From Acidobacteriota bacterium (GTDB lineage: Bacteria; Acidobacteriota; Thermoanaerobaculia; Multivoradales; JAHEKO01): a DNA stretch of 43,633 bases. A program made the translations under genes and the position numbers. The stretch's first letter is position 1, and each line of letters starts with the position of its first letter. Under the pieces are notes generated by a model. The model saw only the letters and a program-made list of their open reading frames with translations, ran no database searches and was not told the origin of the DNA. The stretch covers positions 1-43,633 of the forward strand of contig JAOTWP010000018.1 in assembly GCA_029862975.1 (NCBI GenBank), given 5' to 3'. Shown here one piece after another: positions 25 to 41,470 of this stretch.

Positions 25-654
25 TCAGCCAGCAGACCTGTCTCCCTCGAGCGCTGAGCGCCTCCTCTCGATCCTGCGGTACCCCCACGGGGCGAGCACG
101 AGGCACCAGAGGAAGGCGACGGCGAGGAACGAGCCGTACACGATGCCCCTGGTCCCCCCCCACTCGCTGACGACCAGCCAGCCGAGCAGAAGGTACGCGG
201 CAACCACCGGAGCACCGAGCATCCCGTAGAGAGGCTTGAACCACCATGGTTTCGCGTACGCACGCAGGAAGTAGTCGTGTTTCAGACGCTTCTCATCGTC
301 GCCCGACAGATTCATTTCTTTCGCCAGCATCGACGAGATGCAGTCCATCTCCTCGACGACCACGAAGTAGTTCCAGCGCAGGAAGAGATGTCCGGCGATC
401 CACGCCAGGATGAAGAGGGGAGCGAGCATCAAGAAGCCGCTCAGGACCTGCACCGTCAGGCTCGCGTTCGGACAGGGAGGGATCTGCAGATCGATGTCCG
501 CGTCCGCGAGCTTCACCAGCAGACCGAGACAGGCGAAGATCGCGATCGCGATCACGAGCAGCAGGTGGATGTAGAGCTTCAAAATCTCGGCCAGCAGCTT
601 GACCCGACTCTCGTGCTGGCTCGACAGGACCTGGAGCGCTTTCTCATCGCTCAT
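25..654 (-). CDS. Four-helix integral membrane protein, unknown function
   Basis: I do not recognise the family of this 209-residue protein. Four hydrophobic stretches are visible, near residues 28-50, 68-92, 143-165 and 172-192. They are separated by a polar loop containing MDCISSMLAKEMNLSGDDEKR, and the protein has a basic tail (RRIERRRS). This suggests an inner-membrane protein with both ends cytoplasmic. The ATG is preceded by GGGAGG about 8 nt upstream. The gene starts only 24 bp after the stop of the secreted IDIKPGS-domain gene, so the two should form one transcript under the c-di-GMP riboswitch further upstream. No catalytic motif is apparent. A role as membrane partner of the secreted protein is inference from context only. 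Confidence 0.8.
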   Translation of the reverse strand: MSDEKALQVLSSQHESRVKLLAEILKLYIHLLLVIAIAIFACLGLLVKLADADIDLQIPPCPNASLTVQVLSGFLMLAPLFILAWIAGHLFLRWNYFVVVEEMDCISSMLAKEMNLSGDDEKRLKHDYFLRAYAKPWWFKPLYGMLGAPVVAAYLLLGWLVVSEWGGTRGIVYGSFLAVAFLWCLVLAPWGYRRIERRRSALEGDRSAG

Positions 655-678: not shown

Positions 679-1737
679 CTACGGCACGATGCAGATCTCG
701 TCGCCGCCGCGGAAGAGCCTGCCGTCGAGCAGAGCGCCGGTCACTCCGGCTTCGCTCGTGCCGCCCTGCCAGGCGAGGGGATCGTCGTCGAGGAACTGGC
801 AGGCCAGGTCGGAGTGGCCGTCGCCGTTCACGTCCTCGTGTTGGCACTGCGGATCGCCGTTGCCCCGGACCCGGACCTCGAGCCCCGAGAAGTCGAGCGT
901 CGTGACGTCGATCTCCCATACGTCGAACTCGCCGCTGCCCAGGATCGCCACCGGGATGACCCCGTGGCCGTCGATGTTGAAGCAGTTGGGGTAGCTCCCC
1001 GGCTTGATGTCGATCTCGACCGCGATCTCGCACGGCCCGCTCTGGGTGACCTCGAACACCGGGTGGCTCAGGCCGCCCCAGACGGCGTACTCGTCCGCCA
1101 GAACCCAGATCTCGTTGCTGCCCGAGACGAACAGCTCCGTGGGGAGCGCCAGCCCGCCGAGGAGATACCAGCCGTCGGTCTCGACGACGCCGAGACTCTC
1201 AGCCTCGATCATCATCGACCGGAAGGGCTCGACTACGTTGCCGACGGATTGAGGTCTCCCCGCCGTGCCGCCCGCGGCAGCTTCCACACCGTTGACCCAG
1301 ACGTAGAGATCGTCGTTGATGCCGAGTCTCCGTTCGTTCGGAGCACAGCTCGGACAGTACTTGTTGACCAGACGGACCTCGTCGAGAATGGCCGCGCTGC
1401 ACACCTCGACCGAGGTGTACAGCCAGCGGTTGGTGACCCCACCCTCGTGAAGCCAATAGGCCCAGAAGTCCCCCGGCACCCAGCCCGGAATCGTCACGCC
1501 GAAGCCGTTGTGCTGCGGTCCGTCCCAGACCATCGACGTCCACACCCAGTGCGGGTCGTCGATGGGTCTGCTCGTCGTGCCCAGCCAGGGGCCCTCCACC
1601 ACCGAGCTGGTGGTCTTGGCCCACGCGGGATCCTCGAGCTTCACCACCGGCTGCGAGCTCGAGGCGGCTGGCAACAGCAGGGCCGCGAGCACGACGCAGC
1701 AACTTACGAGCGAAGCCGGGACAGGCTTCTTCTTCAT
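679..1737 (-). CDS. Secreted protein with C-terminal IDIKPGS/dockerin-like domain
   Basis: This 352-residue exported protein has a clear signal peptide (MKKKPVPASLVSCCVVLAALLLPAASS). The central 200 residues are rich in Trp, Gly and Tyr and I cannot assign them. The last 110 residues carry the recognisable module VEIDIKPGS...GVIPVAILGS..FDV..ID..TL and EDVNGDGHSDLACQF, found at the ends of many secreted and surface proteins. Its DVNGDGHSD loop resembles a calcium-binding motif. An AAGGAGG ribosome-binding site lies 7 nt before ATG. It is the first gene of a two-gene operon behind a GEMM-I riboswitch, so its expression is probably set by c-di-GMP, which suits an adhesion or matrix role. Unlike other exported proteins here, it ends in CIVP and lacks the FADGFESG tag. 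Confidence 0.85.
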   Translation of the reverse strand: MKKKPVPASLVSCCVVLAALLLPAASSSQPVVKLEDPAWAKTTSSVVEGPWLGTTSRPIDDPHWVWTSMVWDGPQHNGFGVTIPGWVPGDFWAYWLHEGGVTNRWLYTSVEVCSAAILDEVRLVNKYCPSCAPNERRLGINDDLYVWVNGVEAAAGGTAGRPQSVGNVVEPFRSMMIEAESLGVVETDGWYLLGGLALPTELFVSGSNEIWVLADEYAVWGGLSHPVFEVTQSGPCEIAVEIDIKPGSYPNCFNIDGHGVIPVAILGSGEFDVWEIDVTTLDFSGLEVRVRGNGDPQCQHEDVNGDGHSDLACQFLDDDPLAWQGGTSEAGVTGALLDGRLFRGGDEICIVP

Positions 1738-1760
1738 GGCAGACCTCCTTCACGCGGTCT

Positions 1761-1784
1761 CCCGCGGGCGACCGTGCCCGCGGG
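1761..1784 (-). terminator. GC hairpin downstream of riboswitch (expression platform)
   Basis: A perfect 9-bp inverted repeat (CCCGCGGGC, loop of 6, GCCCGCGGG) lies between the riboswitch core and the ribosome-binding site of the secreted-protein gene. No U-tract follows, so a classical intrinsic terminator is not proven. It is placed where a GEMM expression platform would sit and could act on transcription or on access to the ribosome-binding site. Confidence 0.4.
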
Positions 1785-1788
1785 CGCC

Positions 1789-1902
1789 CGGCAGCTCGGC
1801 GACCTTGGGATCCCTCTCGCGCTCGAGCCCGGCTCCGGGAGAAGGAGGCGAAGACCCGTGGCTTTGCGGCACCGGCTCTCGCCGGCTGTGCCTTTGTCGG
1901 GG
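1789..1902 (-). promoter_or_regulatory. GEMM-I (cyclic di-GMP-I) riboswitch
   Basis: On the minus strand the leader reads AAAGGCACAG, then stem CCGGC-GAGA-GCCGG, then GCCGCAAAGCCACGGGUC. It ends in AAGGUCGCCGAGCUGCC. This follows the GEMM-I layout: GGCAAAC, a helix capped by a GNRA tetraloop (GAGA here), GACGCAAAGCC-ACGGGUC, and a 3' segment AG...GCCGGGUUGCC. The terminal GGCA/UGCC pairing is intact. Two normally conserved A residues are C here (GGCACA for GGCAAA and GCCGCAAA for GACGCAAA). The second helix is longer and irregular. It lies about 50 nt before the start of the secreted IDIKPGS-domain gene. By hand alignment the ligand-contacting G after AAA is kept, which favours c-di-GMP over cGAMP, but this needs a covariance-model check. 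Confidence 0.8.

Positions 1903-37429: not shown

Positions 37430-41470
<4,041 letters not shown>

Follow-up and report, generated by a model that had tools for sequence, protein, structure and literature searches.

A class I c-di-GMP aptamer and the genes behind it

Near its first position, on the minus strand, the window (the whole 43.6-kb stretch of DNA that was analysed) carries a riboswitch aptamer followed by two genes.

1787–1902, minus strand: aptamer of a c-di-GMP-I (GEMM-I) riboswitch whose third stem is long (RF01051, 46.6 bits, E 4.1e-6); the genome has seven such aptamers, this one included
679–1737, minus strand: gene for a secreted 352-aa protein with a signal peptide and a C-terminal IDIKPGS domain (IDIKPGSYPN motif)
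25–654, minus strand: gene for a 209-aa multi-spanning hydrophobic membrane protein without a family match, 24 nt after the 352-aa gene

Both strands of the entire window were searched against Rfam with cmscan. The aptamer, at 1902–1787, was matched over the full length of RF01051 (1–87 of 87) and was the only Rfam match in the window at or above the gathering score. The sequence-only reading had claimed a GEMM-I core and had named a covariance search as one way to check it. The two motifs that it quoted, GCAAAGCCACGGGUC and GCCGAGCUGCC, were both found, with the aptamer on the minus strand, which the reading had not named, and the search bore the claim out with a score above the RF01051 gathering score of 35. 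The ligand-contacting positions of Vc2 (G20, A47 and C92) are all kept, C92 being read from GCUGCC in the cmscan alignment. Vc2 numbers given here (20, 24, 43, 47 and 92) are placed on the window aptamer according to the Vc2 crystal structure as we understand it. The aptamer sits in a 5′ leader, and its end is 49 nt from the ATG. Judged by score, ligand positions and location, the element is a genuine, ordinary class I c-di-GMP riboswitch.

With Vibrio cholerae Vc2 and RF01051 it shares the full-length covariance match, G20, A47, the conserved GCUGCC 3′ strand, the three-stem architecture and a GNRA loop on the first hairpin (GAGA in the window aptamer). It differs from Vc2 in its long P3 extension and in having C/C for A/A at positions 24 and 43. 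A consensus fold of 52 long aptamers aligned with MAFFT recovered the first hairpin without P3, and the P3 extension was therefore taken from single sequences.

Both genes match the earlier description of a secreted IDIKPGS protein and a membrane protein after the riboswitch, and they are probably co-transcribed as an operon. The 352-aa protein matched no Pfam or NCBIfam family. Across 72 genomes of its order it was matched in a single other genome, at the level of a domain, and had no ortholog, so that the window leader itself could not be tested by comparison; the 209-aa membrane protein had no relative among 72 genomes of the order. An AlphaFold model of the 352-aa protein, built from the single sequence, was useless (pLDDT 32), and a literature search on ‘IDIKPGS’ found no paper. 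This locus connects c-di-GMP with two proteins, the uncharacterised secreted protein with its IDIKPGS domain and the membrane protein. Particular to this case are the orphan gene pair, the C/C internal loop and the P3 arm, which may serve as an anti-Shine-Dalgarno element. Elsewhere in the window, a large open frame lies at 37523–41467 (plus strand) and begins PADQPAYLGEMQRSLWLAHRLDPSSPAYNLGSAF; we take its start to resemble a non-ribosomal peptide synthetase condensation domain, and one later frame to be sulfotransferase-like.

The internal loop and the choice of ligand

The two A-to-C departures pointed out from the sequence do exist: the aptamer reads GGCAcA ... GcCGC where the consensus is GGCAAA ... 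GACGC. They fall at Vc2 positions 24 and 43, which face each other across the first hairpin's internal loop. An A at either position is the consensus letter of the model and is not known to be a condition of membership. The first hairpin was read in each of 104 RF01051 matches from the window genome and its relatives within the order. The C/C state of the window aptamer was the commonest (55 aptamers), followed by A/A (15), C/U (10) and A/G (9). Positions 24 and 43 varied together among the lineage aptamers, as an internal-loop pair would: their mutual information over 88 distinct sequences was 0.79 bits, as compared with a highest value of 0.23 among 2000 permutations. The evidence for covariation is strong but short of formal proof, since permutation ignores relatedness. 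Because C/C is the lineage norm and the pair covaries, A at 24 and 43 does not define membership in this lineage. For the same reasons a ligand specificity changed by the A-to-C substitutions was ruled out, and the proposal that they alter affinity or ligand choice was not upheld; the discriminating position is a G.

That position is 20, which separates c-di-GMP from cGAMP binders, and a G20A change makes GEMM-I able to bind cGAMP (PMC6274999). It is G, the c-di-GMP type, in the window aptamer and in all seven genome copies, none of which has the A20 of GEMM-Ib, and A20 was read in only 4 of the 104 lineage copies. The A-to-C changes, for their part, are located away from position 20. It is thus very unlikely that the aptamer senses 3′,3′-cGAMP in place of, or alongside, c-di-GMP, even though the genome encodes a GGDEF protein that carries the Hypr serine (GHLVGS ... 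GGDEF) and this serine is kept in all 15 matches found in 18 family genomes. The protein in question (L234:964-2091; G000:C199:2539-3663) has its GGDEF motif intact and is a candidate 3′,3′-cGAMP synthase.

The A20 aptamers of relatives (L049, G022:C185; L100, G018:C249; L060, G019:C152; L081, G025:C20) all stand before signal-peptide proteins. C20 was read in three further copies, at least one of them perhaps misaligned. In one copy of the window genome (L044, G000:C52:12911-13018) the ligand-proximal stem has changed in a compensatory way, with CC/GG for GC/GC at 21–22/45–46.

Copies across the lineage and their exported products

The 4.49-Mb assembly of the window genome (309 contigs) holds seven c-di-GMP-I copies, and related genomes hold up to 18 each. 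Such numbers are not exceptional, because Geobacter sulfurreducens has 17 GEMM-I riboswitches (PMC6456294). The GEMM-I/GEMM-Ib set of that species resembles the present one in its many aptamers per genome, its extracellular products and a Hypr GGDEF enzyme; most Geobacter copies sense cGAMP, unlike the window genome with G20 in all seven. Domain matches in the window genome (18 GGDEF, 5 EAL and 3 HD_5) indicate that c-di-GMP metabolism is present.

A downstream gene was defined as one of at least 100 codons with its start within 160 nt of the aptamer. With gene starts and signal peptides called by simple heuristics of our own, a signal peptide was found in 61 of 75 directly downstream genes as compared with 36 of 107 other genes at the same loci (Fisher p 1.2e-10); for comparison, the window has 5 among its 25 called genes. 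The remaining six copies of the window genome likewise precede signal-peptide proteins. Most of the domains encoded downstream are of kinds that exported proteins carry: FG-GAP, PKD, thrombospondin type 3, reprolysin-like peptidases, subtilase and di-haem cytochrome c peroxidase. We conclude that the set of proteins exported by these uncultured bacteria is probably under c-di-GMP control. This lineage-wide tie to secreted proteins, which places a large share of the exported proteins under one second messenger, is the most useful result of the analysis.

The riboswitch class itself and its control of secreted proteins were already known. Vc1 of V. cholerae precedes gbpA, for which positive regulation by c-di-GMP has been reported (PMC4744006), and Bc2 of Bacillus thuringiensis precedes the collagen-adhesion protein gene cap (PMC4933901). 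The window element and Vc1 are both class I c-di-GMP aptamers that precede a secreted protein; Vc1 differs in its gene, its expression platform and its 225-nt leader.

In several relatives, pairs of aptamers lie about 0.4 to 1.3 kb apart on one strand (L072, G029:C229; L057, G019:C13; L105, G018:C453; L065, G019:C68). At L040 (G000:C92) the aptamer 3′ strand (GCGCCGAGCTGCCGG) is repeated shortly downstream of the true one; the repeat may compete with the true strand or may be what is left of a tandem copy.

Leader folding and the direction of control

Between the aptamer and the start codon, and within P3, the leader contains the following elements.

1841–1849, minus strand: GCCUCCUUC, the 5′ arm of the long P3 stem and, within the aptamer, a putative anti-Shine-Dalgarno element
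1761–1784, minus strand: strong hairpin between the aptamer and the ribosome-binding site, without a U-tract, present in both folded states
1744–1750, minus strand: Shine-Dalgarno AAGGAGG, 6 nt ahead of the ATG
1741–1760, minus strand: small stem AGACC/GGUCU of the constrained fold, partly overlapping the Shine-Dalgarno in the aptamer-formed state

The strong hairpin noticed earlier is real and consists of a perfect 9-bp stem, CCCGCGGGC-ACGGUC-GCCCGCGGG. Its location directly after the aptamer would suit premature termination of transcription, intrinsic or Rho-dependent, with the hairpin in the expression platform, and the pilM and Cd1 GEMM-I switches do act on transcription (PMC9262584). However, no run of U follows the hairpin, and a T5 tract between aptamer and start codon is missing from 75 of 81 lineage leaders. 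An intrinsic terminator was thereby ruled out, and control by termination of either kind seems improbable. Since T5 tracts are so rare and the aptamer-to-start distance has a median of only 52 nt in the lineage leaders, control of translation fits better than a terminator.

The P3 arm GCCUCCUUC is a 9-bp complement of the ribosome-binding-site stretch GAAGGAGGU (1751–1743), with a duplex energy of −16.2 kcal/mol. In the unconstrained ensemble of the window leader the Shine-Dalgarno pairs with this arm at a probability of 0.99; when the P3 loop was shuffled 300 times with its dinucleotides preserved, 4 shuffles paired equally well. When the base of P3 was enforced, Shine-Dalgarno accessibility rose from 0.00 to 0.57. 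Over 62 leaders the mean accessibility was 0.30 without constraint and 0.44 once the aptamer was enforced (Wilcoxon p 8e-6). These gains have to be read with the caveat that imposing structure of any kind upstream is apt to free the Shine-Dalgarno. The pairing of the Shine-Dalgarno with the P3 arm in the unconstrained leader, and its release when P3 is enforced, suggest an ON switch. As long as no ligand is bound, the 5′ P3 arm (1849–1841), which is rich in pyrimidines, would pair with the Shine-Dalgarno region and block ribosomes. With c-di-GMP bound, the aptamer would retain the arm within its own P3 stem; the Shine-Dalgarno would then be more accessible and the secreted protein made at high c-di-GMP. 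To our knowledge, no such anti-Shine-Dalgarno arm lies inside the Vc1 aptamer.

Aptamer identity, G20, leader anatomy, the signal-peptide association and the c-di-GMP enzymes were computed; translational ON action is what we infer. That the riboswitch leads the operon, belongs to a multi-copy secreted-protein set and acts as a translational ON switch is a model to which we give an even chance. The proposed direction and level of control rest on thermodynamic folding of a GC-rich RNA. For the window leader alone, the test of complementarity gave p 0.055, and the leader was no more stable than its shuffles (z −0.1).

The AGACC/GGUCU stem leaves the Shine-Dalgarno partly covered in the ‘ON’ fold, which counts against the ON reading. 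The opposite mode, that of Vc2, would have the bound aptamer form P1 while structures further on, among them the 1784–1761 hairpin and the AGACC/GGUCU stem, mask the ribosome-binding site. Vc2 has been described as a translational OFF switch in which P1 is the key element (PMC9262584), and an accessibility of 0.57 means that the Shine-Dalgarno is still partly paired in the aptamer-formed fold. Computed accessibility is nevertheless lowest without the aptamer, in the window as well as on the family average, and we consider an OFF switch a rather unlikely alternative. The ON reading that we prefer would set the window switch apart from Vc2.

Of 47 leaders, 12 paired the Shine-Dalgarno with the P3 arm at a probability of 0.7 or more, the window leader being among the highest; other leaders use different partners. 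When the P3 loop was shuffled in these 47 leaders, neither the change in accessibility (p 0.07) nor the loop pairing (p 0.21) was significant, and the anti-Shine-Dalgarno arm was not accepted as a proven family-wide device. A doubtful extension of the ON model would make the variable P3 stem the expression platform in this lineage, with its anti-Shine-Dalgarno 5′ arm sequestered by the ligand-bound aptamer. Such a compact translational ON switch would drive a large secretome that depends on c-di-GMP, and next to it there would be a conserved synthase of the cGAMP type, served by a few A20 aptamers. The P3-arm mechanism is the most testable part of the analysis, and it offers a compact switching mechanism in testable form.
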